DNA from: Membranipora membranacea
Taxonomy: Eukaryota > Bryozoa > Gymnolaemata > Cheilostomatida > Membraniporidae
DNA: 64,000 bases
Reading direction: 5' to 3'
Assembly: GCA_914767715.1 (NCBI GenBank)
Contig: OU612066.1
Location: forward strand, 2,545,001 to 2,609,000
The notes under the pieces were generated by a model. It ran no database searches and had not been told where the DNA came from. It was given only the letters and a program-made list of their open reading frames with translations. This document shows, piece after piece, positions 1-26,400 of this stretch (its first letter is position 1; each line of letters begins with the position of its first letter). Made by a program: the position numbers and the translations under genes.

Positions 1-3000
1 GAACTAACCATCATCCTGCTCTCCTGTCTGTCGCAGTATATTCTCTTTAATATCAGCATAGCCTAGGATCACATGTGTGCACAGAGAAGCATCGATCAGT
101 TTGGGGCTGAACCAGGCCACCCCTGATCGATCAGCAGCTACATTAGTCACATAGCAAACTCTCTTCCATGGCTCTATAATACAATGAAGAAGTTGTCATT
201 CCTCGTATGATGAGAAAAACCAGATTCTAGCGTTGCTCTCACAGCACTAGTGAATACACCACATACAGAACATATAACATTTGATATCAACAAGTCAAAT
301 TGAAACAAATAATGGCACACTATGAGACAATACAGAGGTTGTCTCAGATCACCCAAAAGCATCGTGGCATTTTTTATCTTTTCTAAAATAAACTAGTTTT
401 ATTTTCTATCCAGTGTGATTATATTTAAAAATTGTGGCATATTTGGTATTTTGTTGTATTTTGGTATAATATTCTTATTGAAAGCAAATGAAAAGCGTCC
501 AGCAATAGGGATATTGAGAATCTCCATCCAGCCTTGATATTTATGCAATTGTGATGTTATTCAGGGCTAGATATAGCTGAATATACTCCATCAAAGTGAA
601 TCTATAGTGGTATGCGACATGGAGAAACTGAAATGTCCAATATTGTCAGAGCCACTTATGTCAAATACAAAAATACTGACCATTCACTTCATCAGGCAGT
701 ACTGTAGGTGTAGTTGGGGCTTGTGTTGTTGTAGTCTGAATCTCTGGTTCTACATAGATTACAGTCTGCGGCTGGCCGGGCTCTGCAGTCGTAACTCCTG
801 CCTGAGTTGTTCCGCCGTCAGGCTACATGTATAAATAGAAAAGATAGCAAAATATGAAAGAGGGCTTATCTGATATAAAAAATTGTTTTCCTTATTGACA
901 CTAGAAAAATAAATATATAAAATCTGTTTTGGAGAGAGAAGAGACAGAGAACAGCACTTACCGTGGCACAGACAACGTTAATATCTTCCGCCCAGTCCCA
1001 GTTACATACACCTTGAGCATTATAAACAGTACCTGCTGCACATGGCACCGCCACAGGGTTAGCTCCCTGATTATTACATTGAAAAAACCTTCTACAGTCA
1101 CAAACATCCTCAAAATTACCAGCGTCAGGACACTCAAACACATACGCTACAAACATAGATAGATAAACGTTCATCAGTTGAGCAGGTATTAGTAATCTTA
1201 GAATGTTTGACAGTTCTGAATAATTCAGCTAGGTGATAACTTAGTACAGTAGTGGGAGGTAGCTCAGTTGGTAGTAACACCTGCCCATCCAGTAATCTGC
1301 TGACTACTTGGTTTCGTTGAAGGCCCAGGTGTGCTCTGATCTCCTGCAAACTGCGGGAAAATGACAGCTGTGCCATGATACACAGAGCATACGATTTTAA
1401 CCAACATAAGTTTGAGCTTTTCAATAATATTGCAAAAACACATTGATACTTTAGTGAACTTACTATTACAGTTGATGCTATCAGTGGGCGGCTGAGTGAT
1501 GCCCTGTATACCACAAGGAGGAGGAACATTATACAGCCAGTTACACGAGGTGATAGTCGGGTCCCATACTGTGCCAGCAGCGCACTGTCCGAGTAAAGCT
1601 CGGCCGTATGAGCACTGATAAAACTTAGTGCAGTCACACGGGTCAGGCTGGAACGCAAAGGACCCTGCAGTGCACACCACCGCGTCCCCACAGTTCCCCA
1701 CGGCGGGTGTGATCGGTGCTTCAGTAGTGGCGGTGGTTATACTCGGGTCTGGAGTTGTAGTAGCAGGTGGTTCTGATGCTGTTATAGGAGCTCGAGTCTC
1801 CCCGTCTAAAATGTAAACATAAAACATATGTGTGCTTATAACTATATTCATACATATACATACATATAATCAAATGTGAGCTGAGAATATAGTAACATCC
1901 AAGTAATCAAGGGAATTACCGAGGGATAGAGTCATAGCACAAGTCAGCAAGTCATAAGTGGTGAGAAAACACTTAAGGTTGGACATACAAACGGACAGAT
2001 AGACAAGGATTGTAGGTGAAAATAAGAGTGACTAAATACAACAGGTGCCATTAAGCTTGACATATAGTAGACTCACTGAGTAGACAATCCTTGAGAGTGT
2101 TGATAAGGGGATAAGTGCCATCGTCACACACTGTGCCCAGATAATCATCTAGTGTCAGCTCCCAGAACATACCTCCAGCTAAGTTATTATCTCGTATGTA
2201 CTCACACTGTGTAGATAAGAAAAGCTTAAAATTCTGTACTTTTTGTGTTAACAGGGTATAAACAGTTGAATTAAGCAGGATATACACAGTTGAATTAAAC
2301 AGGGTATACACAGTCAAATTAAGCAGAGTGTACACAGTCAATCGGCAATGTTTTTTTTCTCAGAGATTGGGAAGGTTTTTATTCTTAGATATTGGGAAGG
2401 CTTTTATTCATACACAGTGGTAGCTTAGTCCAAGGTTTGTCATATCTGTATCAACATACCTTGATTAGTACACTTTGCTTGTTGTCATACCCGACCCAAA
2501 CATCATCGCTCCACGAATAAGAGGCCCACTGCTCAGTGTCCCAAACTTCATTAGTGAAGAAGTTAGGATCCTCACATAACTGGAATAAAACAAACCACAC
2601 ATTGTGTATACAAGTCAGAGTAGCACCTTTGCTTGCTGTACATGAAAGTGCTAACTGAATTCCTAACAGTTTCATGCATAGCTCTATTTTTTAAAGTGCA
2701 ATTGTTACTGAGTAGGGATAAAAATGGAAATAACTGGAAACTGAACCAAAGCCATCATACACATGAATTACGATAATATATTAATTAGACTTTGGATAAG
2801 AAATGAACACAAGAATCTACAAACCTCTATATAGCCCATAGTCCCAGCTTGATCTACAATAGGTCCTGCGGGGGCAGCGCCTGTGGCCGGCGATCTCACA
2901 TCCTTACTTCCTGAGAACGACCAGGCTTTACCATACAGAGGGATTCCCAGGTTGATCTTAGTAGATGGGAATCCCCCACTGATCCAGTACTGTACTGAAT

Positions 3001-6000
3001 AATCCTGTCAATTATGAAGTACTTACCACTTACTGAGAGGTAGATTAAGGCACACAGAATATATAATACAACATATAATAAATTAGAAATTCAGTGGCAA
3101 TAAGTAAGCCGTTATCATATATTTATAATGTTATAACATTATAAATGGTAACATGTAGAATCTGTTCATGGTATACTAATGAGTAGATATTGGAATAGCT
3201 GTAATACAAGAGACATATGTTTAAATTTGTTAAGCTTATATAAAATATAATATAAAAATAGGACACTACTATCTATGTGAGTACCTATATACTGACCACA
3301 TTGAGAGTTCTCTGAGATACTGGTTCACTTTGTGATGAGTACATCGCAGCCTGGTGTCCAAGCTCAGATTCCCACGTACCATGGAAATCGTATGTCATCA
3401 AGTTCAACAGGTCTAAATGACTATAAAATGCAAACCATATCAAAATCCTATCACCGCCGGTTGGGAATAAAATATGTCTCATAGTTCAGAGACAGCTGAC
3501 AAATGGTATGAAGATGTAATATGCTGCGAATTTTAAGATATTTTGAGCCGTGTCTCTAGCTAGCGCGCAAATATCTACATAATCTGTTTTTACATTTCTT
3601 TTATTAAACCAAACTCATCTGGGACCCAGGCTAACCTGACTGACCTTCAGAGGCTTTCAGCCAATCAGATTACAGATTAGAGTGCAACTAGACAAGTGGC
3701 CATTGATTGACAGAGGTGCATGGTGAACAAAATCCAATCTAAATCATACAAGTATTCAGTGAGATGTTTTAGAATTCATTCCATCGATCGGACTGTGCGC
3801 AAACTCAGCTAAAATGGAATTACATAGAAAAGTGCCGGTGTTCTTTTATCTCACTAAATAATAATTTAATTTAGATACAATATACACTCTGCTTATTGGT
3901 CAGCATTGCAAAACAAACAGGTGAAAGAGAGAGAAGTCTTCTCTCTATTATAGTCCAACATGACAGGACTTACTCTCCCAGCTTGTCTCTCTCATAGCTC
4001 GTATCTATAGATGATTTCCCAGCAGCGACAGCAGCAGTCAGAAGAAGTCTGTCATTTCCTGTATCAGCTGCCTCCTGATCAAACGCAGCCCTCAACTCCT
4101 GACAAAATAGAGTGAATCTCTCCTTATCTGCAGGCACCCCGCCCCGCTGTGCTGGGTACTCCCAGTCTAAATCTAATCCATCCACACCCAGATCTCTGCA
4201 ATAAGGTTAAACAAAGTATAATGTATGACGAGTGACAGTGTAGGCACTCAAAACTGAATTCAATCTCCAGACAAGTAATAACCTAAAATAACTCCATACT
4301 AAGTTTTGTGAACGCAAAAGATGTTCAGATAATTATATTGAAATAAAAATACAGATGCTGTCCCACTGCCCCAAATGTGAGTCACCTACCAAACGTATTC
4401 AAGATAATTTTAGAAAGACTGGACTATGTTGACATAAAACTTTGTGTCAAGTTCAAGGTAGACTAATGTGAGTCTCCCTGATAGATTCTAAACTTCATAT
4501 ACAGCCGGTGTTCTGGCTGCCAGTGTTGCCACACGAGATACTCTAGCACCTCAGAAATGTGACAGGATAGTACACTCACCTCAGGAGTGTGACTGAATAG
4601 TGCACTCACCTCAGCAATGTGACAGCGTGAGTGATAAATGTAGCTCTAGAGGAGGCAGAGGAGACAACTTGTGTGAACTCATCACTCGCCTGATTCCAGC
4701 CTCCCACAGCCACCAGCACCTTCAGATCAGAGTTTGCCTGCTTTAGAGCCACAAGTTCTTCTATCAGTGCTGAAATCATTTATTACCATAAGTTTGTGTA
4801 TCATAGCAAAACATAGGCTAACAAAGATGAGTGGCTAAAATGGCAAAATTTTGCAATGCGGAGATTTGCTGCTTGAAATTATTACGAATACCTGCGTCGG
4901 ATTGGCATGATGCCTTACTATAGCTATAGGGATAGAGCTGACCATATGGAGAGCAGTCTACTTACTGTCATCATTACTCTCATAAAACGCCAGTACTCCG
5001 TTAGTTATCTGTATGAAAGAGTGTATCACATGGGTACACAGGCTAGCATCTATATGAGCTGTAGTGAAGGTGTAAGGGGCGCTCCGATACTGTCCCCAGT
5101 TTGTTGTGTAACATACAACTGTATAACCTAAAATAATGTATGACATGCAGGCTAAACACAGTGCTTTCCAATAAACATATTACTTATAATCAAAAATGAT
5201 AAAGACTATAATGGTAGGAGGACACCTATGCTCACAGAGGACTTAACACAGGTAAGGGTGCAGGTCTATCACAATGAAGCTTAATCTATATACTCTCATA
5301 ATTCTGGCAGGTATGTAACTAAACACTAACATTTCGAAAATACATGATATTTGTTTAAGATTAAATTTATAAACCCATCTTTTTGGTGTATGGTCACACA
5401 GATAGACTGCAGTATAATTTGATGGGTTATTATGTGCTGATGATATTTCAGGTGTGACAGCCTGCCTGTGCTGTGACAGCGGTTGGGTCGAAGGTCCTTC
5501 TAATACCTGCTATAAGTTTGTCACCAATCAGAAGGTGACATGGTTTCAGGCTATAGGTTTTTGTCTGGATATGAGGGGTCATCTTGCCACCCTGGACTCT
5601 GAGATGGAGATAGTATGGATGAAAGGCTACCGAAGTCATCACCCGGCACTGAGACATGAAGAGATGTGGTTGGGTGGGTACCTCCAGCATGGGAACTGGA
5701 TGTGGAAAGGGGGCGTGGCAGACTCCCCGATGCTTGTACGTGATTGGGCACAGAACGAGCCTAACAACTATAACAACGAACAGGGATGCCTACAGCTCTA
5801 TGCTGATCACGACCTTCTGAACCCATCGACTCAGTGGTTCTGATTTGATGATGTCTCCTGCGCTGATATACAAGGTTATATCTGTGAATCTAGCGTGTGA
5901 ATATTTTGTTGTTTGTAGTATGTCACAACTATACAAATACAAAATCACAAAAATGAAGAGAATTTTGCTCTCAATTTCTCCTTATCTAATTTGATATATA

Positions 6001-9000
6001 GGTGGGGACTTGAAGAGGGGGGGGGGGGGAGATAACATCACAAGGAGAAACCATGAGTGGAAGTCAGCAAGGAGAACTGAGGTACTGAACCTTGTCATCA
6101 ATTTGCAATAAAATCTGCAGCGATCTTTTCCAATCATCAGACGGAAAGTGAACACTCCTTGGTTCATTCTTTACAACATTTTCTTGCAATTCCTGAAACC
6201 TTTTGTTCCGCAATAATATAAATATAAAGTAGCAACATGTCCTCCTTCTGAAATATGACCAAGGGAATAGTACTCTGAGATATACAATATCTGAGATATG
6301 ACCAAGGGAATAGTACTCTGAGATATACAATATCTGAGATATGACCAAGGGAATAGTACTCTGAGATATACAATATCTGAGATATGACCAAGGGAATAGT
6401 ACTCTGAGATATACAATATCTGAGATATGACCAAGGGAATAGTACTCTGAGATATACAATATCTGAGATATGACCAAGGGAATAGTACTCTGAGATATAC
6501 AATATCTGAGATATGACCAAGGGAATAGTACTCTGAGATATACAATATCTGAGATATGACCAAGGGAATAGTCCTCTGAGATATACAATATCTGAGATAT
6601 GACCAAGGGAATAGTACTCTGAGATATACAATATCTGAGATATGACCAAGGGAATAGTACTCTGAGATATACAATATCTGAGATATGACCAAGGGAATAG
6701 TACTCTGAGATATACAATATCTGAGATATGACCAAGGGAATAGTACTCTGAGATATACAATATCTGAGATATGACCAAGGGAATAGTACTCTGAGATATA
6801 CAATATCTGAGATATGACCAAGGGAATAGTACTCTGAGATATACAATATCTGAGATATGACCAAGGGAATAGTACTCTGAGATATACAATATCTGAGATA
6901 TGACCAAGGGAATAGTCCTCTGAGATATACAATATCTGAGATATGACAAAGGGAATAGTACTCTGAGATATACAATATCTGAGATATGACCAAGGGAATA
7001 GTACTCTGAGATATACAATATCTGAGATATGACCAAGGGAATAGTCCTCTGAGATATACAATATCTGAGATATGACCAAGGGAATAGTACTCTGAGATAT
7101 ACAATATCTGAGATATGACCAAGGGAATAGTACTCTGAGATATACAATATCTGAGATATGACCAAGGGAATAGTACTCTGAGATATACAATATCTGAGAT
7201 ATGACCAAGGGAATAGTACTCTGAGATATACAATATCTGAGATATGACCAAGGGAATAGTACTCTGAGATATACAATATCTGAGATATGACCAAGGGAAT
7301 AGTACTCTGAGATATACAATATCTGAGATATGACCAAGGGAATAGTACTCTGAGATATACAATATCTGAGATATGACCAAGGGAATAGTCCTCTGAGATA
7401 TACAATATCTGAGATATGACAAAGGGAATAGTACTCTGAGATATACAATATCTGAGATATGACCAAGGGAATAGTACTCTGAGATATACAATATCTGAGA
7501 TATGACAAAGGGAATAGTACTCTGAGATATACAATATCTGAGATATGACCAAGGGAATAGTACTCTGAGATATACAATATCTGAGATATGACCAAGGGAA
7601 TAGTACTCTGAGATATACAATATCTGAGATATGACCAAGGGAATAGTACTCTGAGATATACAATATCTGAGATATGACCAAGGGAATAGTACTCTGAGAT
7701 ATACAATATCCAAAAACTTGAATGCTGTAAGTCTCACCTAATAATTTACCGAATATTAACCGAAAAGCCAAATTGAATTGCTCATTTAATTTTTTTCTCT
7801 ACTTACAAAGCAGATACCAAAGTCAGATTATTCTAAAACTGTAGCGTAGAGGGTTGAATGGTTTAACAAGTTACATACTGGTTACAATCTTGAACAGGTC
7901 AATAAAACAGGGTGTGCTGTGCAGCATTACGTTACACTACATGGTACCAGTCATGGGAACTGACAGATTGTCTGCTTGGTGTGTTTCACCTACTGCAACG
8001 CAAAACATAGTCAGAAGAAGTGACACGATGCATGTACTACTTTTTTCAGCAGTGATCCTCTTTGCAGGTAAATACGCTGCTGTATCTATAATAATTTGGT
8101 CTGTGTTTGTGTTGCGCGGTGCCATTGAAAGAAAAAAAAGGTGATTAAGGTCATAACATAACAGCATGTGTTATAAAGCATAGTTAAGTAGGGTATTATA
8201 GTACCATCTATGGAATCAAATTCAATGCCAATTAGTTTTACATAATTATCGAAATGTCGATTTCTGAAACAACTTTATAGGAAGGTCCATGTCAACTTTT
8301 TTTCATTTCAAATGCTGCCCTAGAAATTAACTATGTTTATTTATGCTATAAATAATGATACTCAATCATTAATAACCGTTATTGGAACAGTTTGTAACCT
8401 GGTGTAGTTTATTTAATGGTATGAGATATTTTCTCTTAATTCTACCTACCACTACAGGGATAGCTGACTAGTCTTCTACCTGACATGACGATGCTGCTAT
8501 ACAGAGTAGTGATATGTCTGATAATGACAGTTGGGAATCTTTTAGGTTATATTTTTAATTTAACCTTTGTGTATAGATAGAGCCCATCATAAGTACATAG
8601 TAAGCTGAGCGTTGATTTCCTTCACAGGATCAGATGCTGCGGAGAGTTGTACGAGCACAGGATGGATAATGGGACCGTTTGAAAGTTGTTACAAATTTGT
8701 AACCAGCACTAAAGCTACATGGAAACAGGCCAATGCCTTCTGTATGGATATGGATAGCACACTAGCCACCCTTGGATCTTATGATGAGATTTTCTGGATG
8801 AAGGGGTACCGCAGTCACCACCCACAGCTAAGACAAAGTGATATGTGGATTGGAGGCTACAAGAAAGCAGGTGTATGGGTATGGAAGGGGGAGGTGGTTG
8901 ACGCCCCGATACTCATTGCAGACTGGGCATCAGGACAACCAGATAACCACGGAGGTAGTCAGGGCTGCGTAAGACTGGTGGGAGATTACTCAGGGTACCC

Positions 9001-12000
9001 ATCAGCTACCTGGTGGTTCAGGTTCGATGACAGCTCCTGCGCTATTACACGAGGATTTATCTGTGAAAGAATGCTACATAAAACATAACATTAATAAATG
9101 TATAGGATTTATCTCGATTGATTTCTGTCGACAGTTTATCTGGGTTCTAGTCAATCATATGTTTACGGCATGTCTGGACTGTAAATGATAATTCAGTCAC
9201 ACACTTAATATTTGTTTGGAGTTTAGACAATAAAATTTAAATGCAGCAAACTGGCCTTTAATCCCTAGATCAACAGTTGGCATGTTTCTCACAATGATTA
9301 AAATCCGAGATAGATCATAAGAGTGCTCATTAAACTCATACAGTTAGAATATCACCATGTATCATTCACGCTTCTTCAAGCTCCTGCTTCTACTCTGTGT
9401 ATATCAGAATAAAGGTTTGTACATATTCACATACCTCACAGTTTTGTCAATTCAACTTGTCGTCTACGCCATATATATTTATGACCTAGTGAAACCAAGC
9501 ATTTCTTGATCTAATATCTCAGCGAACCCTTTGGCTTTGTTTGACAGGAAACACCCAACCATCCTAACTTAAAATATTAATCTGGCTCACACCAGTTATG
9601 ATTCTGACATGGTGTTGAGATTAGCGTAGAATGACAGATAATTTACTGATATTACAGGGCTGGTAGAGTCAATAGGATGTCCGAGTGGTTGGATAGAGAG
9701 ACCCGAATCAGGATCTTGTTATCACTTTGTTAACACACAGAAGAAAACCTGGTCACAAGCAGAGGGACTCTGTAGAGATATGAATGGTCACCTGGCAATA
9801 CTGGAATCTGAGGATGAGATTGTGTGGATGAAGGGGTATCGCATACACCGCCCTACACTCAGAACAGAGAGCTACTGGATTGGAGGCTATCAGAAGGATG
9901 GAAAGTGGTTATGGGTAGGGAAGATAGTAGATTACCCGATGCTGGTATTTGACTGGTCAGATAGGAACCCAGACAATGCCGGAAATCCTGAAGGATCTCC
10001 TGGATCACAGGATTGTGTCTCACAATACGCAGCACATGTTCACTTCGCATGGGATGATAACTCCTGCGACACCATACTGCCATTTATTTGTGAGAGAGAT
10101 ATGCAATAAACCTGTTGATGATAAAGTCTACCAACCACTAACAAATTATCTCATGTTGAATCTGCTAATTTCGTTTTCATTGGTGAGCTTATTCCTAAGA
10201 GCTTATTCCTCATACTGTTGTCAGTGAAAACTGACCAGAGGTTAATTTGCTGTGGAAAGTATTGTCCTGCTCAGAATCTAATCGAAGTTTTAACACGCAG
10301 ACCATAAGTAGAATAGCGCGCCTGTTATTCATAACATTAAAACACACATTTACCTGAGAAAGCATTAGAGGGTCGGGTGACTGGAGAGGGAGTGGATACA
10401 GCAGGGGATTCTGATGTAGTCACAGGCTCAGGGGGTGTAGTTGTTGAGGGAACTGGTAATGGTATGCCGCCTACAAGAATAAAGAGAGTAATTGAATAAA
10501 AGCTGTAAAAATTGTCAAAAACCAGAAAGCTGGCACAATGCAGGAGTTTTTTTATATAGTACATGAGTGATTGTGTACGTGTAGAAGTTGTCTAGACACA
10601 AAACGTCTGCACACAATTATATGAATCTCAAACATATGACCAATACGAGCTATGGGCAATACTAAGACTAGGGACTGGAAGAGGGATTGAAACGGATCGG
10701 GATTTGTTCATGAATACAGTTGAAGGTCAATTTATTGGTATTGCCGCATTGCACTCTTCAGTTGAAATAGCCTTGCATGTCAAGCGTTGGCTATCACATG
10801 GTGACTGAACAGGTGTTGAAACAAAATTTGAATCATTAACAGCCTAAAATAGGTGACATCAGGTTTCCTGCTTACCTGTGTAAGTACCAAGGCAATCCTT
10901 GAGCTGATTCATGAGGGGATAAGCACCCTGCCCGCAGAATGTCCCTCTAAAGTCATCAAGATCTAAGGCCCAGAACATACCTCCCATCAGTCCATGGTCT
11001 TTGATGTAATGACACTGGAAGTTTAACAAAATGAGGACGATGAGGATGTGAAGATCAAGTCAATAAACATGAAGTCAACAAACATGAGAGCTAAAGCGAG
11101 CTCACACCATCACAACGTAATGTCAATGATCTGAGGCATAGCCTGAGAGGCTGCCAATGTGTGACAAGATGACAGTAGACTAAGTACCTTAAGAATAATC
11201 GACTCAGAGTCATCGTATCCCACCCACTGATCGCCCCGGTATGTGTAGGGAGCCTGGTGGTCTGCGTTCCACTGCCTGTTACTCATGTAGTTACTGTTTG
11301 AACATATCTCATAATATGCCAAAAAACCTGAGACAAACAATAACAAGTTATAAAGATACTGATTATTACCATATTGTCCTCGCTTTGATTAAATATCTGA
11401 CTAGAGGTTGTCTTATATTGCAAGGCATTACTTACAGGATCATAGCACGGAGACTGTCCGCTTTTTACACAGTGAACTTCAACATGTGGTTTTCTCTTTA
11501 TAAAAAGACATGACGAAAAAAACTAAATATTTCGCCGTCTGATTATACGGCAAACGTACAGACAGCTACATAGCAATGTAGTATAATCTAGTTATTCCGC
11601 TTAGTAAGTTTGTACCTGCGGCAGCTGTGTATGGACCTTGCTGTCCTGCTCCCCTAGAAGAATCCCCAAGATCGTTATCTGATTGGCTACTGAGAGCAAA
11701 ACCTCTACCATAAGTGGGAATTCCCATCACAATCTTCTCACGGGGAAAACCCCCAGCGATCCAGTAATTGATTGAGTAGTCCTGGTTAAAAAAGGCAAAT
11801 TGTTAGCAAATTGCATCGCACTAAGGATTATCAACTTTTGCCTGTCATTCACATACAGTGACTGTGAATTAAGCTGGCTCATGACCGCCGTTGATGTTGC
11901 ATATCTGGTTTGTTTGTTGTGGAAATTTGCAAGAAAGTACAGATGTAAAAAGCTATGCAATACGCAAGAGTTGTCATAACATGATCAAAGAGGAGAAAAC

Positions 12001-15000
12001 TCTAAGTAATGTTGTAGGTGACCATGGCTAATTAGACAGAGCATGGCTAATTTGACAGAGCATGGCATATACTGAGACTGACCACATTGAGTTTTTTACT
12101 CTCTGTACTCTCCTCAGGCCGATCGTAGAGTGGAGCGTGGTGTCCTGTTATCGGATCCCATGAGCCATGTAAATCATAAGCCATCAAGTTTAACATGTCC
12201 AGATATCTGAATCACAAAGGAGTTGATTAAACACACAGGACGCATATAAAATCTTTATTAAACACAATAAGCGATAGGTAACTCGGAGTCTAGGAACACA
12301 AATATTCACAAATAGACTATTCATGAGAATTGCTGTCACAAGATACCTTGGGCTAATTCAAAAGAGTTAAACAGCAACATTGAACAGTTTTTTTCAAATA
12401 CAACATATTGACTGCATTTTCAAACATATCATTTTGTGGTGATAAATGGGGTGATAAAAGTTTGTTTTCAGTCATTAAGAGAGTGAGAGTTTGGAGGGCG
12501 TGTTACACCAAACCAGGTCAAAAACAGGGTCGCAATCTCCATCTACTGTATAAGATTATCGACAAAACATTCTTCTCCAACCATACGATTTTGATTGTTA
12601 TCTCAGGCCCGGATGTGAGGTTGGAAGCAAAGGCTCCCCATTGCCAGGCTTTGAAGATGTAAATATTCGGTCTGAGTATACCTATATCTAGGTCAAACAG
12701 TTTGGGTTGAGAGACTCACAGTCCAAGTTGATCTCTCTCGTAACCATTAGCAATAGTCGATTCTCCAGCAGCTACGGCGGCTGTGAGAAGTAGGCGTGGT
12801 CTACCAGAGCTCCACCCTTCTGCTTCAAATGCCTCCACTAACTCCTTACATAGAGTGGTGAATCTCTGTTTATCACCAGGTGGACTGCCTCGAGCACCCG
12901 GATACTCCCAATCAAGGTCTAATCCGTCATAACCTGTAGAGGGAGCCCATGCATTTAAAAAATTGCTTTTTGATTAATAAATAGAGTGATATGATTCCAA
13001 AAGTTTACACTAAAAGACCCAAAGATAATCATGTAAAATCTTGGAAGACTCGAAGAATATGAGCTGATTCATTCACTTTATTTACCTTTATATTGAAGTG
13101 TAAATCAATAAAGGACTCTGTCTAACAGTACAATATCTCTGACACAACTTAGGAATCTAACAGTACAATATCCCTGACACAACTTAGCAATCTAACAGTA
13201 CAATATCTCTGACACAACAGTTGTGTTCACATAACCCACAAAATGAGGCGATTGTCACAGAGGTATTCTTTACTCAAATTATGGGCAGAGAGCATTTTGC
13301 ATTGCCTTATCACAGAAGATGAGTGCCGGGGAGAGGAAGCAGTTTATCATAACCTGCAGTGCAGGGCAAGTAGAATGCACATTCTTATCTGTGTACGGCC
13401 GTACACAGATAAGAATGTGCCTACAAGGTACCTCTATCCCTGAGGAATGTGATAGCGTCGTCGATGAATGTAGCTCTTTTAGCTGCTGTAGACACCATAT
13501 CAGTGAATGGTGCAGATCCATGAGTCCAGCCTCCGACAGCCAATAAGATCTTCAGCTCAGGATTAGTGTCCTTCCATCTCACTAACTGAGCTACCATAGC
13601 TGTTATAGAAAAGCGCAACGCTACATGTTAGTCAGTGATATGTGACGCTTACTGCTGAGGTACAAATAATCCTAAGGGATAAATCAGTCTAACCATCAGA
13701 AACTCCAGCTGATCCATTGATGGATCTCTAACACATCTGGACTATATAACAACGAATGGTTGACCCATAATCTCCTGAGGGCCAGACAGACAGACAGACA
13801 CATACCGTCATCATTCCACTCATAGTTAGCGAGGATGCCGTTCTGTATCTTAGCGAAGCTGTATATTATATGTGTACACAGATGAGGGTCTATATCAGTA
13901 GGTGTGTACTTCCCATCTCCATTTCTATACTGAGCCCAGTTGGTGTAATAACACACCCTCACATAGTTATCTGTAAGGAGACGCAAGCATGAGTGATACT
14001 CAACTTTACTATGATACTGATGACAGATAATGCGGAAACATATCGTGGGGAACAGAAGATACAACATTGGCCTCTGAGAATCTTTGACATTACACTTACA
14101 CCAGTTGAGGGAATGGAGTAAGTGATTAACAAGCACACAAGTATGTAAGAAGATTGGAGTCCCCAGGAGCCAGTTTGTTTACTCTTTTACTGCTATGTAA
14201 TCGTTTGTGGAATTTACAGAACATCAAAAGCAACAAGATATGATGTTGCAAGAGTCACTAGACCAGGTGGTAAGGGATTGCGCTCTGGATAAATTGGTCT
14301 GTCACAGAGACTGTCAGTGACGCCGAATCATGACTGGAGTTTAGTGAGATTGTGGGTGCTGTGACAACTGGGCGTCATGGTATCGGCTGGGAAGCACACC
14401 GGTGGTTTTCGAAAGAAAGCCCATAAGTTATGTTCAAATGTGTACCACAAACATTAATACTTATATAGTAACAATACACCTGGGCTGTGAAAAGATCGAT
14501 GAGAAAAGGATGTATGATAAATATACTAACTGGGATCTGGTCCCCCAGGTACACCAGCCCTGGGTGTTGTGGGTGGTTCTGTGGTCGCTCCTGGTACTGG
14601 GGTGGTGGTGGGATTAGACTGAGTGGTAGTTGTCACTCCTCCACCTCCTCCACTGCGAGGGTTGATCGCCACATCGGCGCAGGCATAAAACTCCTCCTGA
14701 TTACCACATCCAACACAGCAGCCATTATCATCACATGCCCAGCTGTTAGCTGTGAAGAGAGACAGGAAAAATTATCAACGTGTAAAAAACAAAGACTTAC
14801 ATATATAATATCAGGATAGGCAGACCAACGGACCGCACTGAGTTAATTTAGAATCAGGAAAATCCGGAGACTTTCATTGTAGTTATTTTCTTAAAATTGC
14901 TTGTTCGAATTATATATTCCCAGACCCTTGTGTTTGTTATACCTCATTTTTGCTGATATGTACACATTTTTCAGTTTATAAATGAAAAACAATATATAAG

Positions 15001-18000
15001 CACCATGATCATTTAATATTGAATTTGTTTTCCATATTGCGGAATACACTTCACAACATGTTTTCTCAACAGCTGTTTTAATATCCCACAAAATTAATGG
15101 AATAAGGTTTAATTTTACGGATAAAATATTTTGCTTACGACAAAATAAATAAAGTGCAGAGTATTCAGTAAACTATGATCCATAAATGGTTTAGCTTGCT
15201 GATCTGAGCTTAGTTGTTGTGATTCATGTGTGTACGGAATTAATTAAATGTGTTATGAAGAATGTGACTGGTGGGGTTGAACAATAAAAGTTTCATGAGC
15301 ATTAGTTCCTGGCAGTTCTTGGCAGTTCCTGGTAGACTTAATAATTTTTCCACTTAATACAGGGTAGACGTTAAAGTAGAAGTGAAGTGGACTGTATGTT
15401 CAACAACGCCTTTATAAAAACTGGCGCAAAAAAACAGGCGAGTTATTTGTCAAATCGCATCTTGCCAACATGAAATTCAGAATTATGTCAAAGATCCCCC
15501 TACCAATCCAATAAACAGAAGTAGGCCATTATGTTCCGTATTAGGGATGCGGTCGAGGTTACTGATAGGATAGGATATCAGCAGTGACTTTGTGCAGATC
15601 CAAAACTGTCTGAACTCTGAAGCCATTTAAAACTGAACTTAGTTGATTGTATAAGGGGCCTGGTTTAGTTCGATCTTAGCTGTGTTAAGTAGGGAATCAG
15701 ATATACAGTATAATCTTACCAGTATGATATCTCCATTGTATAACACATTGAGTACAGGATAAGCCTACAGGCAGCTTCAATATTATCTCATATACTCCTG
15801 GGTTAGTCCCCGGCAGCATGTATCTATAATATAACAATAGGATTAATAATCACCAGCATACATGTATATTATGTGTATTACATGTCTATTGTGTATATAA
15901 GGTGTATTACGTGTACTAGTGTATAACGTGTATAACGTGTACTATGTGTATTACCATGTATTATGTGCTATGTGTGCTGCACAGCCACGAAAGTTAGCAT
16001 CAGCTGGACAACTGATGGGTCTCAAATAAATATTTAAATGTTGTAACTGTTGTAACTGTGTTATTGCGCTGCTGTCAATCTTTAAGAGTCGTGCTAAATA
16101 ACAATAAAATAATGTTAAATAATTAAACAAAGTTTACAGTCAAGCAGAGAACACCTTGTGTAAGCCGTGTGAGGGGAGCTTGTGTAAGCCGTGTGAGGGG
16201 AGCTTGTGTAAGCCGTGTGAGGGGAGCTTGTGTAAGCCGTGTGAGGGGAGCTTGTTTGATTATATATACCTACATACTTGTTTGGTCTATATATATATAT
16301 AGACCTATATAATTATATATATATACCTATTTAGTATTTATATACATACCAGGCTCATATTTACACAGACTCACAGACATATAACTTACTTTGTTCCCGT
16401 GCCCAGAGGTGAAAGCTCCAGCACATTAGCATCTAAACAGTCCTGAGTAACAGCCTTGCTAATGTCATTATTAGCACATATTTTAAACTCAAACCATCCC
16501 TTATGATGTGCTGTCACCTTCAAAAATACAACTTCAATTATACAATATAGGCAATAACATACAACAAATATATTCCATTGTGCTACGACTGGTAAATTTA
16601 TTGAACACTGCAAAACTGGGTGTTTATTTCAGCAGTGTGGAGTGAAAGCTAAACTTATTGACCAAGTCCACAGTAAGACAGAGCAAAATAACCTACTACA
16701 GACACTGTATGAATATTGTCAAAACAGAATTACAGCATCAATGTTAAAAGTTCTACAGTATTGCTTTCTAACAGACGAAGATAAAAAATACCAAGTTTCA
16801 ATGTTCAGTTTCAACTTTCAAATTTTTAAATTTGATGACAGCTCACCAGCAAAACCTTAGTCATCATATAAAATAAGGTGAAACAGTCACTTAAATAACA
16901 TAAAGGACTCTGATATTTCTTAATCAAGGAGCCCATCATTAAACATCATGACAAAAGCTTTTCTATGCACGAAGTATTGACAGACAATCACACTTAACAG
17001 TTTCTACCTAAAATAAGAGACAATACTAGGACATCACATCATTATATCATGAATATGAGGCCGGTACCAACTGAGAGTAACTTTTTTTATTAACTTTGAT
17101 AGGAGTGTCACATCTAAGTATTTATAATCTTTGATAGTTGTTGATGATGATGATGATATGACTTTATTGAAAACCGTTCGAAACATCCACTGTGGAGACA
17201 ATACACATCATATAAGAACGTGTCAGACAAAAATGGAAGACAAATTAAAAATACCATCAGTTCTAAAAGGAAGTATTGATATGCATAATCATACACGCTG
17301 TTATTAGCAGTTCCACTTACGTTTTGTGTATAAGAGTGCGTATATACATACCTGTACTTTAGCGGTAAGTTCATCACCTTCAGTATAAGTAGCAACTATA
17401 ACTCCGAGAGCGTATACGTTATCAGGTCCGGGCTGATTCTGTATGGGCCCATGATATGGGTCACCGCACACTCCACATCGCCCGCCATTCTGATTGTATT
17501 GTACCTATAAGTATACGTGTAAAAATAATGATCCTTCTGTAGGTAAATTAGTACATTGAAACCAAAGATATTCATTTAGACATCAAAATTAAAATCATAG
17601 TTTTTGTAACTTTTATTTTCAAACAGAAGTGCCCAATCAGTTTTGTACCAAATGATGCTCGTGGAGGAATCAATGGAACAAACACATACCCATTATCTAA
17701 GTTGTGTGCTTCATCAGATTGACTAAGAGGATTAACCTGATTTGGATAAATGGTCCAGTCCAATTTCTAGGTTTTTATTGCTTTGAGCAAAGTGTAAACA
17801 TTAAGGTTCAATTATAAGTCCCTAATTTCAGTTTGTTTAGTTACACCCAGATCATCAATGAGAAAAGGAAATTCGTTATTAAACATTTGACTTTCAGCAT
17901 ACTTAGAAAACTTCAAACTATGGGATATATTTCAAGGACTTCACTGATCAATAATCCCATATATGCAGAGTATTGAAAATTTGTACCATGATTATAAATT

Positions 18001-18789
18001 CCCAATAAATATCAGGATGGATATCTTATTAGAGATAGAGTGAAGAAACTGTTTGATGGCGCACTGTATGTAAGTAAAATCATTTTGCAAGCTATCACTG
18101 CACTCTAGGAACTCTTTACCTAATCTAAAACTAGCACAACAAAACATTATTTTCTGCTGATTCCACGCTAGGAAGGCAGCCCAAGACAGATTTTCCAATC
18201 TTGGATGATTTTAGATGATGCGGTCAGACCAGGATGAAATGAATGCAGTGTGTGATAAGCCAGGAGTTAACCTTGGTGAAGGGTAACATTCCAGTCTGGT
18301 GGTACTTACTGGAACACCTCCACAGAAGAGCTGATTATCGCCATAGTTAGCAGGAGTCCCGAAACCATATCTGAATGCTGTAGATCTGCCGGCAGGCTCA
18401 ATCAAACGTGCATGTCCCTTAAAATATGTATAACATCAATCATAGTTATTATAATATACAAGTTTCATAAAATGTTTTATAAACTTTTTAATGGAAAGAT
18501 CGCATACATTTATCGTAGTTTCAGGTTAAGTTACATTTTCTTTATAACTGGAGTCTTTGGATAGAGGCTTGAATTGCTTCACACATATATAGCATTACTC
18601 AGCGATCAAACAAACATGTCATCATCTTACTTCTGTAATCCCCCAGCTTGAGACACGATATGGGCGAAATGGGCGGGAGTTTACATAAGAGTCACGAGGG
18701 ATTAATCTCACCTGAACTTTTAGACAGTGATGAGATAGCAAACACAGAAGAACTGAAAGTTCTAATAGTCTGTAATTCCCCGATAACAT
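1..18789 (-). CDS. Modular secreted chitinolytic enzyme: AA15 LPMO-GH18-GH18-CBM14-CBM14-GH18 (3' part outside window)
   Basis: Predicted multi-exon gene, 26 exons visible, about 1,339 codons before the left edge. Exons (high to low): 18712-18789, 18310-18417, 17352-17504, 16390-16517, 15720-15823, 14531-14749, 13806-13970, 13432-13599, 12720-12933, 12083-12206, 11616-11781, 11188-11327, 10876-11014, 10354-10470, 4966-5127, 4610-4769, 3974-4195, 3297-3420, 2825-3004, 2460-2579, 2077-2206, 1464-1805, 1281-1343, 962-1146, 681-822, 9-173. Every join is GT-AG and keeps one frame; all junctions between modules are phase 1. A signal peptide opens the protein and neither internal GH18 has a visible start exon of its own, which argues for one gene. 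GH18 hydrolyses chitin beta-1,4 bonds, AA15 cleaves crystalline chitin oxidatively and CBM14 binds chitin. The alternative is two or three adjacent genes; the weak point is the AA15 linker exon, where an in-frame TAG follows the proposed donor at once. Confidence 0.72.
9..173 (-). CDS. Start of GH18 chitinase module 3 (exon 26, continues off window)
   Basis: A 165-bp exon, the same length as the first exon of GH18 module 1 and with the same phase 1-1 boundaries. It encodes [13 protein letters not shown] then [16 protein letters not shown], the GH18 first strands. The remainder, including the catalytic motif, lies left of the window. Module 3 departs from the usual Y-x-T-N-W (Trp replaced by Val), so it may differ in substrate binding. 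Confidence 0.82.
681..822 (-). CDS. Thr/Pro-rich linker exon (exon 25)
   Basis: A 142-bp exon entering in phase 0 after CBM14 number 2 and leaving in phase 1. It encodes a Gly/Gln/Thr/Pro-rich spacer (for example [12 protein letters not shown]) that ends Asp-Glu-Val-Asn and is split before the third GH18 module. Acceptor TGTAG, donor GTCAGT. Low complexity, assigned by composition and phase. Confidence 0.72.
962..1805 (-). CDS. Linker and two CBM14 (peritrophin-A) chitin-binding domains (exons 22-24)
   Basis: Exon 22 (1464-1805) starts with a Thr/Pro/Ser linker. It then encodes a CBM14 domain with six cysteines and the signature [14 protein letters not shown] followed by [16 protein letters not shown]. 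Exon 23 (1281-1343) is a 21-residue Ser/Thr/Pro linker, phase 1-1. Exon 24 (962-1146) encodes a second CBM14 with [42 protein letters not shown]14 is the peritrophin-type chitin-binding fold that tethers animal chitinases to the polymer. The domains sit between GH18 modules 2 and 3 of the predicted fusion, as in multi-catalytic chitinases of other animals. Confidence 0.93.
2077..5127 (-). CDS. GH18 chitinase module 2 (exons 15-21)
   Basis: Residues about 675-1040. It opens with [13 protein letters not shown] and has KVLVAVGGW (exon 16), [10 protein letters not shown] (exon 17; DxxDxDWE with catalytic Glu at about residue 794), [12 protein letters not shown] (exon 18), GIPLYGKAW (exon 19), WVGYDN (exon 20) and [12 protein letters not shown] (exon 21). 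Exons: 4966-5127, 4610-4769, 3974-4195, 3297-3420, 2825-3004, 2460-2579, 2077-2206. Exon layout parallels module 1 (162 versus 165, then identical 124-bp exons), which indicates module duplication with introns retained, although the second and third intron positions have shifted slightly. The catalytic site is intact. No separate signal-peptide exon was found upstream, supporting its place inside the larger protein. Confidence 0.92.
2252..2340. repeat. 24-bp tandem repeat, 3.7 copies
   Basis: Units close to CAGGGTATACACAGTTGAAT followed by TAAA, at 2252, 2276, 2300 and a partial at 2324. In chitinase intron 20, between the last two exons of GH18 module 2. Confidence 0.85.
4547..4636. repeat. 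30-bp tandem triplication of the exon 16 donor junction
   Basis: Three 30-bp units start at 4547, 4577 and 4607. The third spans the end of chitinase exon 16 and its GT donor (minus strand GCTGAG/GTGAGTG). The middle copy keeps a good donor (CTGAG/GTGAG), the outer one has GTGCT. Using the middle donor would add 30 nt but meets TGA in frame at once, so the exon-proximal donor is the functional one. Confidence 0.85.
5274..5900 (+). CDS. C-type lectin 1 (CTLD) with in-frame premature stop
   Basis: Exon 1 5274-5310 (signal peptide [12 protein letters not shown], phase 1), intron 5311-5451, exon 2 from 5452. One CTLD follows: [51 protein letters not shown] and an EPN-type stretch (QNEPNN), which in vertebrate CTLDs goes with mannose-type binding. 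A TGA at 5841-5843 follows QWF where lectin 2 has Arg. Past it the same frame continues [15 protein letters not shown] to a second TGA at 5898-5900. Truncation (142 residues) removes the last two conserved cysteines and the WND-equivalent calcium site; read-through would give 161. Nested antisense in the chitinase intron. It may be a young pseudogene, an edited or read-through transcript, or a sequencing error. Confidence 0.8.
6252..7710. repeat. 43-bp satellite, about 34 copies
   Basis: Near-identical head-to-tail units containing GATATGACCAAGGGAATAG and ACTCTGAGATATACAATATC. Variants are limited to a few positions (TACTCT or TCCTCT, CCAAGG or CAAAGG). The array lies between lectins 1 and 2, inside the large chitinase intron. 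The minus strand is stop-free in all three frames, producing long spurious open frames of over 500 codons; because 43 is not a multiple of 3, each is the same cyclic peptide. No spacers, so not a CRISPR. Confidence 0.97.
8028..9088 (+). CDS. C-type lectin 2 (secreted single CTLD)
   Basis: Exon 1 8028-8067 encodes the hydrophobic leader [13 protein letters not shown]; exon 2 8628-9088 the CTLD. The protein is 166 aa. Motifs: [46 protein letters not shown], a QPD motif (SGQPDN, galactose-type in vertebrate CTLDs), then [10 protein letters not shown] in the WND position and GFICE with the last cysteine. All four core CTLD cysteines are present plus the extra N-terminal pair. AATAAA occurs at 9093-9098, only five bases after the stop, and again at 9229-9234. 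The middle member of a tandem trio on the strand opposite the enclosing chitinase gene. It probably acts as a secreted sugar-recognition protein (inference). Confidence 0.9.
9357..10109 (+). CDS. C-type lectin 3 (secreted single CTLD)
   Basis: Exon 1 9357-9414 encodes [19 protein letters not shown] (signal peptide); exon 2 9658-10109 the CTLD. The protein is 169 aa. Motifs: [55 protein letters not shown], an NPD stretch (DRNPDN) in place of EPN or QPD, and FAWDDNSC with a WDD version of the WND calcium motif, ending FICERDMQ. The TAA stop (10107-10109) lies inside an AATAAA hexamer at 10105-10110. Same gene structure as lectins 1 and 2 (phase-1 intron after the leader), so all three come from local duplication. 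Confidence 0.9.
10354..10470 (-). CDS. Ser/Thr/Pro linker exon between GH18 modules 1 and 2 (exon 14)
   Basis: A 117-bp symmetric phase 1-1 exon encoding 39 residues rich in Pro, Thr and Ser (for example [10 protein letters not shown]), a typical O-glycosylated spacer between secreted CAZyme modules. Acceptor TGTAG at 10471 side and donor GTAAAT after 10354. It joins GH18 module 1 (Gly-Thr-Tyr-Thr-Gly) to GH18 module 2 (Phe-Ser-Gly-Tyr-Thr-Val) in frame across a 5.2-kb intron. This linker continuing into an intron with no nearby stop or polyadenylation signal is a main argument for fusion of the two catalytic modules. Confidence 0.8.
10876..13970 (-). CDS. GH18 chitinase module 1 (exons 7-13)
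   Basis: Residues about 264-635 of the predicted fusion. It opens with [11 protein letters not shown], a typical GH18 first strand. It then shows the KILLAVGGW motif (exon 8) and [11 protein letters not shown] (exon 9), which is the DxxDxDWE active site with the catalytic Glu at about residue 384. Exon 10 has [12 protein letters not shown], exon 11 GIPTYGRGF, and exon 13 [12 protein letters not shown]. Exons 13806-13970, 13432-13599, 12720-12933, 12083-12206, 11616-11781, 11188-11327, 10876-11014 join in phases 1,1,2,0,1,0,1. All expected strand motifs and catalytic residues are present, so it should be active. Intron 8 starts next to a 44-bp perfect palindrome, and intron 8 also holds a 35-bp x 3 repeat. 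Confidence 0.92.
13121..13218. repeat. 35-bp tandem repeat, about 2.8 copies
   Basis: Units begin TCTAACAGTACAATATCTCT at 13121, 13156 and 13191 with a few substitutions. Inside chitinase intron 8. Confidence 0.85.
13377..13420. repeat. 44-bp perfect palindrome beside a splice donor
   Basis: Arms of 22 bp with no loop, centred on GGCC at 13397-13400 (core GTGTACGGCCGTACAC). It lies 11 bases inside chitinase intron 8, whose donor is at 13431-13430, so the transcript could fold a hairpin right beside the 5' splice site. Confidence 0.95.
14531..18789 (-). CDS. AA15 lytic polysaccharide monooxygenase module (exons 1-6)
   Basis: Exon 1 (18712-18789) encodes a 26-residue hydrophobic leader. Exon 2 begins Gly-His-Ala-Arg-Leu-Ile-Glu-Pro, so cleavage after Gly would expose the N-terminal His that forms the LPMO copper histidine brace. 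Later AA15 hallmarks: FRYGF and [11 protein letters not shown] (exon 2), [12 protein letters not shown] (exon 3), the second-His motif [12 protein letters not shown] (exon 4), [11 protein letters not shown] and [10 protein letters not shown] (exon 5), [15 protein letters not shown] (exon 6). Catalytic residues look intact and the paired cysteines are present. Exon 6 ends in a Gly run and a Thr/Pro-rich linker. Role (family knowledge): copper-dependent oxidative cleavage of chitin in the extracellular space. Exon 6 either splices at 14531 (phase 1, fits the next exon) or reads three bases further into TAG at 14528-14526, giving a stand-alone LPMO. Confidence 0.9.
16155..16250. repeat. 24-bp tandem repeat, 4 copies
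   Basis: Four identical units of 24 bp (CTTGTGTAAGCCGTGTGAGG plus GGAG) at 16155, 16179, 16203 and 16227 inside LPMO intron 4, followed by an AT-rich stretch at 16258-16330. Confidence 0.95.
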
Positions 18790-20497: not shown

Positions 20498-23400
20498 TCA
20501 CAGCTGATTCCTCAGTGAGTCGATAGCATTTCTAATCACTGACATCTGTGGATCGTCTGATCCTGATTCTACATACAGCTGGAAGTGTTTGACAGCTTCT
20601 CTAAGATATAACCCTGATTCATGTGGAGATAAGTCTGAGTTACGAGCCATCTTCTCACAGGCTAAAGCATAATTCTTATGATAGTAGTCGGGGACGGGTG
20701 AGTGGGTGTCCATCACTTTCTTATAAGCCTGTCAGGATGAAAGGTGAGAGAATAAATTCCGTAGTATTATACAGCTATGAACACAAACACGCATGACAGG
20801 CATGGAGTTTTCCGCAAACTGCAGATAAAAAAACTTTGACATCATGTGATATGATTGTGTTTATATGAGCTCAATAAAGATTTTGTTGCGTTATTTTATT
20901 CAGCTCACTTTGGCATATCAGCTATTTTTGCGTAACTGCCAACTGGTTATTTTTGTCAGATCTCATCAACCTATATTATCACATCTGTTATGTCATCAGG
21001 AAAGACACTGTCGAAAATCGCATAAATGTACACAATGTGTTCAAAATATGATGTCACATCTCCAAATGTAGGATACTACTATATTGGATGTCTCACTTTA
21101 ACATATTGTCAGTAATATTCTTTTGAAGATCAAACAGGATCTTACTTTGTATGATTGAGAGAAAAGAAGATATTTGGCTGATTCTTCTGTCTGTTTCACT
21201 GCAGCATTATACAGAAATAAAGCTTTGTATATTCTGCAATAAATATGAGATATCATCAAATAGCATTTGTGAAGAGGATATCAGATTACACACTATCAAG
21301 TGTTATAATATCCAGTTGTGTGTAGAATTGGCAGCTCAAACATTTATTACCAAATTTTCCAAAACCATTTTCTTTAAAAATATTATTACGTGGAATAAAT
21401 GCTGCCTTGTGCAGTCGACTCTCCACTATGTATTGTCATTTTATATTTGGGATTCTCACGCATCAAGAGAAGATGCCTATTTTCTAAAACTTTCAAAAGA
21501 CACTATAGACAGTTTTCTGAGCTCTAATTTGAGGAGCTGTCCTCTCTTCAGTTTGGTACTTTTAACCCACGCCGCATAAGAAAAACGTGCTGAAAAACGG
21601 TTATCTTGAAATCGCTTATGTTACGATGAAATGATTCTTGATTCAGAATCTGCACCATGGAAAACCCTGTGAGACAGGGTTTCCAAATCATTGGGGGCTT
21701 GAAAGTTGATAATTCTCAATTTTAGTGACAAAATTCATGAAAAAATTTTCATGAAATTTGTCCGCAAAACTGGCAGGAATTGTTACAATCGACTATCCGA
21801 ATACCAAAATTATTTCCTAAACTACATTCCTATCAGTTTTCAATGGTGCAGTTTCTGAATCAAAAATCATTTTTATCCTCACATAAGCGGTTTTCAAGAT
21901 AACCCTCTTTTCAGCACGTTTTTCCTAAGCGGCGTGGGTTAAAAAAGTACCAAGCTGGAGAGAGGAAAACTCCGAATTGAGGCCCAAAACAGAGCTCAGA
22001 AAACTGTTTTTTATGGGTTTGGTCTTGGTGGCGTTGCATAGTCTTATATGATAATATAATACATACTTTGCGCTCCACATTTCTTCATCTGCGACACCTT
22101 CCCATGATCCATTTCTCTTTCTGTATAATACAACATGGCCGACATCACCAATGAGTAACACATCACAGATAACCTTCCACCTATCCACACTGACATCGAG
22201 ATTACACTATTAACATATGTACCTCTGATCGTTAGAGTCAATTTAAGTCAGTAACTCACATGTACCCACCCCTAATTATAAGTCGTCACACCAAATTCCT
22301 TGTCACGATGTGATGATGAATTAGTTTACTCTCTATCGATCAGAGATATACATGCAATAGAATATCACGTTATCAGTGTGCCACCTACCCTCATAGTTAG
22401 CTGTCCTTCTCTCTAACAGGATAACATAAAAGGTTAAACATCACATGTTTCTTATAAGTACCTCTCAGAGCCCAGCTTAGTTCAGGGTTACACTCACTGT
22501 TTATAGCTAGATGACCAGGTATCTATGTATGGATGGTTATATTCTATCCAGTCCTCAGCCCGACTTATCACCTGATGACAGGCTCCGTATGGCATCAGAG
22601 TAAACTCAGACAACCAGGAGTTCTCCTTATCCTGTATCCCGATACACACAAATATCCTCCTACAATATACTATTGCTATACATACAAATATCCTCCTACA
22701 ATATACTATTACTATACATACAAATATCCTCCTACAATATACTATTACTATACATACAAATATCCTCCTACAATATACTATTACTATACACACAAATATC
22801 CTCCTACAATATACTATTACTATACACACAAATATCCTCCTACAATATACTATTACTATACACACAAATATCCTCCTACAATATACTATTACTATACATA
22901 CAAATATCCTCCTACAATATACTATTACTATACATACAAATATCCTCCTACAATATACTATTACTATACATACAAATATCCTCCTACAATATACTATTAC
23001 TATACACACAAATATCCTCCTACAATATACTATTACTATACACACAAATATCCTCCTACAATATACTATTACTATACACACAAATATCCTCCTACAATAT
23101 ACTATTACTATACACACAAATATCCTCCTACAATATACTATTACTATACACACAAATATCCTCCTACAATATACTATTACTATACACACACATATCCTCC
23201 TACAATATACTATTACTATACACACAAATATCCTCCTACAATATACTATTACTATACACACAAATATCCTCCTACAATATACTATTACTATACACACAAA
23301 TATCCTCCTACAATATACTATTACTATACACACAAATATCCTCCTACAATATACTATTACTATACATACAAATATCCTCCTACAATATACTATTACTATA

Positions 23401-26400
23401 CACACAAATATCCTCCTACAATATACTATTACTATACATACAAATATCCTCCTACAATATACTATTACTATACATACAAATATCCTCCTACAATATACTA
23501 TTACTATACACACAAATATCCTCCTACAATATACTATTACTATACATACAAATATCCTCCTACAATATACTATTACTATACACACAAATATCCTCCTACA
23601 ATATACTATTACTATACATACAAATATCCTCCTACAATATACTATTACTATACACACAAATATCCTCCTACAATATACTATTACTATACATACAAATATC
23701 CTCCTACAATATACTATTACTATACATACAAATATCCTCCTACAATATACTATTACTATACATACAAATATCCTCCTACAATATACTATTACTATACATA
23801 CACATATCCTCCTACAATATACTATTGCTATACATACAAATATCCTCCTACAATATACTATTACTATACATACACATATCCTCCTACAATATACTATTAC
23901 TATACACACAAATATCCTCCTACAATATACTATTGCTATACATACAAATATCCTCCTACAATATACTATTACTATACACACAAATATCCTCCTACAATAT
24001 ACTATTACTATACACACAAATATCCTCCTACAATATACTATTACTATACATACAAATATCCTCCTACAATATACTATTACTATACATACAAATATCCTCC
24101 TACAACATACTATTACTATACACACAAATATCCTCCTACAATATACTATTACTATACATACAAATATCCTCCTACAATATACTATTACTATACACACAAA
24201 TATCCTCCTACAATATACTATTACTATACACACAAATATCCTCCTACAATATACTATTACTATACACACAAATATCCTCCTACAATATACTATTACTATA
24301 CATACAAATATCCTCCTACAACATACTATTACTATACACACAAATATCCTCCTACAATATACTATTACTATACATACAAATATCCTCCTACAATATACTA
24401 TTACTATACACACAAATATCCTCCTACAATATACTATTACTATACACACAAATATCCTCCTACAATATACTATTACTATACACACAAATATCCTCCTACA
24501 ATATACTATTACTATACATACAAATATCCTCCTACAACATACTATTACTATACACACAAATATCCTCCTACAATATACTATTACTATACATACAAATATC
24601 CTCCTACAATATACTATTACTATACATACACATATCCTCCTACAATATACTATTGCTATACATACAAATATCCTCCTACAATATACTATTACTATACATA
24701 CACATATCCTCCTACAATATACTATTACTATACACACAAATATCCTCCTACAATATACTATTGCTATACATACAAATATCCTCCTACAATATACTATTAC
24801 TATACACACAAATATCCTCCTACAATATACTATTACTATACACACAAATATCCTCCTACAATATACTATTACTATACACACAAATATCCTCCTACAATAT
24901 ACTATTACTATACATACAAATATCCTCCTACAATATACTATTACTATACACACACATATCCTCCTACAATATACTATTACTATACACACAAATATCCTCC
25001 TACAATATACTATTACTATACACACAAATATCCTCCTACAATATACTATTACTATACATACAAATATCCTCCTACAATATACTATTACTATACATACACA
25101 TATCCTCCTACAATATACTATTGCTATACATACAAATATCCTCCTACAATATACTATTACTATACATACACATATCCTCCTACAATATACTATTACTATA
25201 CACACAAATATCCTCCTACAATATACTATTGCTATACATACAAATATCCTCCTACAATATACTATTACTATACATACACATATCCTCCTACAATATACTA
25301 TTACTATACACACAAATATCCTCCTACAATATACTATTACTATACACACAAATATCCTCCTACAATATACTATTACTATACATACACATATCCTCCTACA
25401 ATATACTATTACTATACATACACATATCCTCCTACAATATACTATTACTATACACACAAATATCCTCCTACAATATACTATTACTATACATACACATATC
25501 CTCCTACAATATACTATTACTATACACACAAATATCCTCCTACAATATACTATTACTATACATACACATATCCTCCTACAATATACTATTACTATACACA
25601 CAAATATCCTCCTACAATATACTATTGCTATACATACAAATATCCTCCTACAATATACTATTACTATACACACAAATATCCTCCTACAATATACTATTAC
25701 TATACACACAAATATCCTCCTACAATATACTATTACTATACACACAAATATCCTCCTACAATATACTATTACTATACATACAAATATCCTCCTACAATAT
25801 ACTATTACTATACACACAAATATCCTCCTACAATATACTATTACTATACATACACATATCCTCCTACAATATACTATTACTATACACACAAATATCCTCC
25901 TACAATATACTATTACTATACACACAAATATCCTCCTACAATATACTATTACTATACACACAAATATCCTCCTACAATATACTATTACTATACACACAAA
26001 TATCCTCCTACAATATACTATTACTATACACACAAATATCCTCCTACAATATACTATTACTATACACACAAATATCCTCCTACAATATACTATTACTATA
26101 CACACAAATATCCTCCTACAATATACTATTACTATACACACAAATATCCTCCTACAATATACTATTACTATACACACAAATATCCTCCTACAATATACTA
26201 TTACTATACACACAAATATCCTCCTACAATATACTATTACTATACATACAAATATCCTCCTACAATATACTATTACTATACACACAAATATCCTCCTACA
26301 ATAAACTATTACTATACACACAAATATCCTCCTACAATATACTATTACTATACACACAAATATCCTCCTACAATATACTATTACTATACACACAAATATC

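Follow-up and report, generated by a model that had tools for sequence, protein, structure and literature searches.

In the window, the 64,000-nucleotide stretch of Membranipora membranacea DNA analysed here, a minus-strand gene is best read as encoding one secreted enzyme that would unite the oxidative and the hydrolytic cleavage of chitin. The case for a single enzyme is strong for an AA15 LPMO and the chitinase module that follows it (GH18-1), and fair for the remaining modules. Judged from sequence, the AA15 module is very likely joined to GH18-1 in one polypeptide, and the whole chain of 25 exons probably gives one mRNA and one polypeptide. A slightly less secure expectation, though still a favoured one, is that this animal makes a single polypeptide of far more than 1300 residues with one AA15, at least three active GH18 modules and two CBM14 domains, whose gene has three lectin genes nested in an intron. 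Fusion of AA15 to GH18 is a rare yet known design in animals. AA15-GH18 pairs have been described before, but the searches made turned up no example of the longer array.

Gene model

The gene model runs on the minus strand from position 18789 to position 9. Its 24 introns all have GT-AG borders, and no N occurs anywhere in the window. When spliced, the 25 exons give 3955 nucleotides in frame and free of stops, or 1318 residues. An initial annotation of this DNA had described module exons lying in order on one strand with about 4 kb of coding sequence in frame, and the model agrees with it on both points. The modules follow one another as listed.

18712..18789, minus strand: exon 1, signal peptide (cleavage site judged by eye)
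14531..18417, minus strand: exons 2-6, AA15 LPMO (residues 28-217) and a Thr/Pro/Gly linker (residues 219-265, the last two completed by exon 7); Pfam, alignment to PDB 5msz
10876..13970, minus strand: exons 7-13, GH18-1; Pfam, chitotriosidase match, motifs
10354..10470, minus strand: exon 14, Ser/Thr/Pro linker from GH18-1 to GH18-2
5128..10353, minus strand: intron 14, 5226 bp, with three plus-strand C-type lectin genes, a minisatellite and a signal-peptide-like exon
2077..5127, minus strand: exons 15-21, GH18-2; Pfam, chitotriosidase match, motifs
962..1805, minus strand: exons 22-23, a linker followed by a pair of CBM14 (peritrophin-A) domains; Pfam
681..822, minus strand: exon 24, linker
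9..173, minus strand: exon 25, first 55 or so residues of GH18-3; the gene continues past the window end

All three GH18 modules of the model are preceded by a Ser/Thr/Pro-rich linker. The phase 1 joins reported earlier between modules are found again at exon joins 6/7, 13/14, 14/15, 21/22, 22/23 and 24/25, while join 23/24, which enters the last linker, is in phase 0. Splice sites were scored by leaving each one out in turn, which gives a range within the gene of 2.4-11.8 for donors and 0.5-11.3 for acceptors.

The AA15 module

Pfam LPMO_10 matches residues 28-217 with 62.4 bits (cut-off 23), and the module aligns with chain residues 1-192 of 201 in the solved AA15 structure 5msz (TdAA15A; E 1.9e-47). 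Exon 2 supplies the residues G|H after the signal peptide, which would make His28 the first residue of the mature protein. In the alignment His28 and His118 stand opposite His1 and His91 of 5msz, and the axial Phe211 opposite Tyr184 (5msz chain numbers counted by hand). We take His28, His118 and the axial Phe211 to be the copper-site residues of the module. The alignment to a solved AA15, together with the presence of the N-terminal His, the second His and the axial Phe, points to membership of the AA15 LPMO family.

The axial Phe is encoded in exon 6 (14531-14749, minus strand). By a regular expression rather than an alignment, the axial residue was counted as Phe in 54 of 62 sequences (window included) and as Tyr in 2, with 6 unmatched. 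A second-His pattern from the same script was dropped, having matched the wrong place in P0047, the Lingula sequence described below.

The GH18 and CBM14 modules

Pfam Glyco_hydro_18 covers two stretches of the protein (644 bits). GH18-1 has the motifs DGLDLDWE at residue 377, MAYD at 454 and GGMFW at 600; GH18-2 has DGLDLDWE at 787, MTYD at 864 and GGMFW at 1008. With DxxDxDxE, M-x-Y-D and Trp motifs in place, both are complete GH18 domains. The closest solved chain for each is chitotriosidase (E 2e-131 for GH18-1, 2e-105 for GH18-2). The two modules are 52% identical (190 of 366 aligned residues), and four of seven intron positions fall in the same column and phase (columns 54, 181, 223 and 325; phases 1, 2, 0 and 0), as after a duplication.

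Of the three GH18 modules in the initial annotation, two are therefore whole; the third is a stub that scores 19.3 bits over 41 residues, under the Pfam cut-off of 29.6; the window ends inside this module. Both CBM14 domains named there are retained. CBM_14 scores 50.1 bits in a scan of the whole protein, and the two domains score 42.6 and 27.9 bits when scanned singly (cut-off 22.1), the second passing only when alone.

Relatives of the gene

An annotated homologue of the fusion is LOC106158689 of Lingula anatina (P0047), which like the window gene has an AA15, a Thr-rich linker and a GH18, with Pfam matches to LPMO_10 and GH18. A single BLASTP alignment of 409 columns (44% identity, E 4e-102) extends from the AA15 across the linker into GH18-1. 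The AA15 parts are 48% identical, and the GH18 part of P0047 is closer to GH18-1 (49% over 143 residues) than to GH18-2 (40% over 141). The annotated gene model has 413 residues and ends inside the GH18; it carries neither CBM14 nor a further GH18.

P0047 is the only sequence with a GH18 label among the 61 AA15 relatives listed (37 of 59 candidates and 24 of 261); five of the 61 carry a CBM14 label, and the sequences of 30 were inspected. The most similar full-length AA15 listed, P0001 (56%, 300 residues), has another C-terminal tail and no GH18. Among the matches listed, the nearest named AA15 are those of molluscs, of the annelid Ridgeia and of Lingula, whereas that of the tunicate Clavelina reaches 30%; by themselves these matches make a lophotrochozoan source likely. 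A search for AA15 in longer proteins (1147 candidates of 725-2306 residues) gave none at E 0.001, a weak negative, for it missed the in-range P0054 (774 residues), which reached E 6.7e-45 to the window AA15 in a separate search.

A tree of the AA15 has 55 rows. Seven of the 61 relatives were left out: P0028, P0030 and P0031 (short), P0034, P0036 and P0037 (fragments) and P0043 (a garbled model). No starred set of the tree includes the window gene, and its bootstrap is not settled. Constraining the window gene to group with the two Lingula rows makes the tree 7.1 log units worse, and this is not rejected (p-AU 0.26), so the fusions may, but need not, share a common origin.

Joins between the modules

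The LPMO and GH18-1 meet at join 6/7 (14531/13970), where the donor scores 7.4 and the acceptor 9.2, inside the range of the gene. Two database fragments, P0036 and P0037, retain the end of the exon 6 linker, GVPGG[A/S]DPS, and diverge a few residues later, with no stop there. This is as expected if the donor at 14531 is conserved. P0036 continues as KYVTV, which BLASTP pairs with NYVRV of exon 7 and which probably represents a translated GTAAGTATG-like donor; both fragments are probably unspliced genomic pieces. With a collinear homologue in Lingula and the linker end kept in two fragments, the join of AA15 to GH18-1 is well supported.

It is very unlikely that a separate LPMO gene ends at the TAG next to 14531 and that GH18-1 belongs to another gene, beginning at 14067 or in an unseen exon. 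Reading through exon 6 does reach a TAG after one residue (...GGPDPS*), so a free LPMO is conceivable; an ATG at 14067 opens a frame with a weakly hydrophobic start that runs unspliced into exon 7, and 60 of the 61 AA15 relatives listed have no GH18 label. Set against this are the collinear AA15 and GH18 of P0047 and the two stop-free fragments. A scan for hydrophobicity and donors also found no phase 1 signal-peptide exon in intron 6, though shuffles of that intron average 0.2 hits, so this result rules out hardly more than a clear signal exon. Neither AATAAA nor ATTAAA is present in intron 6, which is weak evidence because 12 of the 24 introns of the gene model have no poly(A) hexamer. Less probable still, to the point of being negligible, is an assembly artefact in which an LPMO gene and chitinase fragments were wrongly adjoined. 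Large minisatellites nearby can mislead assemblies, and one of the lectin genes has an in-frame TGA, but the window is free of N, introns, phases and linkers are consistent across the joins, and Lingula has AA15 followed by GH18 in the same order.

GH18-1 and GH18-2 meet at join 14/15 (10354/5127), a clean phase 1 splice whose donor (7.5) and acceptor (6.4) are again inside the range of the gene. This join is the weaker of the two because intron 14 is 5.2 kb long and holds a strong signal-peptide-like exon and three lectin genes on the opposite strand. The other 23 introns measure 139-970 bp, and the length of intron 14 together with its lectin genes means that it could be intergenic. It contains the following.

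5274-5843, plus strand: single-domain secreted C-type lectin gene, 142 residues to its stop; signal-peptide exon 5274-5310
6247-7710: minisatellite, 34 copies of 43 bp
8028-9088, plus strand: single-domain secreted C-type lectin gene, 166 residues; signal-peptide exon 8028-8067
9357-10109, plus strand: single-domain secreted C-type lectin gene, 169 residues; signal-peptide exon 9357-9414
10236-10332, minus strand: signal-peptide-like exon

The lectin genes lie head to tail. In the first, an in-frame TGA (5841-5843) comes ahead of the last conserved segment, and this gene may be a pseudogene, or the TGA a polymorphism or a sequence error. The signal-peptide exons of the three come from the scan, a home-made scoring of hydrophobicity and donors that recovered exon 1 and all three lectin starts. 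It gave further hits beside exon 1 (one), in intron 14 on the plus strand (one) and in intron 24 (one, a weak candidate at 362-260 with a donor score of 4.0); the counts in three control scans of other places were 0, 1 and 0. The earlier statement that the only signal peptide stands before the LPMO thus holds for the spliced model, while the scan adds 10332-10236, 362-260 and the three plus-strand lectin exons.

The exon at 10332-10236 matters for the main alternative, which is unlikely, yet far from negligible: two tandem genes, or two transcripts of one locus, of which one ends with AA15 and GH18-1 after exon 14 and the other begins at 10332-10236 and carries GH18-2, both CBM14 and GH18-3. 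The candidate has a strong hydrophobic core and a phase 1 donor (score 10.1) that could splice to 5127; its strength was equalled in 0 of 500 shuffles at thresholds set after the candidate was seen, and in 13 of 500 at milder ones. Read-through of exon 14 meets a stop after GKCVF, an AATAAA lies at 10088 within the intron, and the Lingula model has AA15 and GH18 alone, though it is cut short. However, one hit in intron 14 is what chance would give (shuffles, with the minisatellite removed, average 1.05). Signal-peptide cleavage follows the -3/-1 rule, and the candidate has, by eye, no small residues at these positions past its hydrophobic core, and so lacks a good cleavage site. Its ATG sits 22 nucleotides beyond exon 14, which would place its promoter inside the first gene. 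That gene would moreover finish in a bare Ser/Thr/Pro linker with no binding domain, and the splice from exon 14 to exon 15 is clean. The single secreted enzyme of the initial annotation is thus well supported for AA15 and GH18-1, on the Lingula homologue and the linker end; across 10354/5127 it is less secure, given the long lectin-bearing intron and the candidate alternative first exon.

Predicted mode of action

On the preferred reading of a single enzyme, cleavage of the signal peptide would expose His28 and allow a copper histidine brace to form. The LPMO could then break chains oxidatively on crystalline chitin, and the tethered GH18 modules would hydrolyse from the new chain ends. The CBM14 domains and flexible linkers may keep the protein on chitin throughout. 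The enzyme would extend past the start of GH18-3, beyond the window. Its activities and their synergy are predictions from the modules it contains.

Fusions of an LPMO to a chitinase test the benefit of tethering oxidative and hydrolytic activity on crystalline chitin. If the reading is true, an animal fusion that carries multiple GH18 and CBM14 modules, together with its Lingula homologue, would offer a testable enzyme for the remodelling or digestion of chitin in invertebrates.

Other features of the window

Three further minisatellites lie outside the gene. The largest has 168 copies of a 36-bp unit (22642-28679) and is open in several frames over long stretches because its unit is a multiple of three; it is likely to raise false gene calls. 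Another has 72 copies of 56 bp (31474-35491). The third (61858-63213) can be described as 84 copies of 16 bp or 56 copies of 24 bp.

Cytochrome P450 exons are found on the plus strand at 57819-58166 and 61120-61521. The C-terminal piece lies upstream of the N-terminal piece, and this order on one strand points to two genes or gene copies. An exon resembling phytanoyl-CoA dioxygenase lies at 47751-48110 on the plus strand (PhyH, 34.2 bits).

Comparison with known systems

The closest solved relatives of the GH18 modules are chitotriosidase and acidic mammalian chitinase, presumably of human and mammalian origin. Unlike the window gene, these have one GH18 and no LPMO. TdAA15A of Thermobia domestica (5msz) is of the same LPMO family as the window AA15 and matches it over the full domain. 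It is a single domain with an axial Tyr184, whereas the window gene is multi-modular with an axial Phe.

Sabbadin et al. (2018; PMC5823890) describe AA15-GH18 fusions from tunicates, Chlorophyta and Bacillariophyceae, and other AA15 that are joined to CBM14. The former have the AA15-GH18 pair in common with the window gene, as compared by description only. Together with the Lingula annotation, the tunicate cases described there indicate that the novelty implied earlier for an animal AA15 joined to GH18 was overstated. Oomycete AA15 have other C-terminal domains, according to part of another paper (PMC8393829).

The literature matches listed, judged by titles and abstract starts, included no AA15 of an animal joined to multiple GH18, a weak indication that none is in print. 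A search for LPMO literature on brachiopods found no match, and the matches listed for Lingula chitinase or GH18 and for brachiopod genomes, chitinase and phoronids contained no such fusion in their titles or abstract starts. In an excerpt of the Lingula genome paper, a shell-matrix chitinase is said possibly to remodel the chitin scaffold (PMC4595640).

Finally, a functional parallel comes from bacteria. The relevant part of a 2023 review (PMC10154629) names bacterial Jd1381 (JdLPMO10A) as the sole characterised LPMO that carries a further catalytic CAZyme domain. Its arrangement is AA10-CBM5-GH18, and according to the review the full-length protein outperformed the separated domains. As described there, Jd1381 resembles the predicted product of the window gene in combining an LPMO with a chitinase in one bicatalytic protein, and differs from it in being bacterial, in having an AA10 instead of an AA15 and in carrying one GH18.
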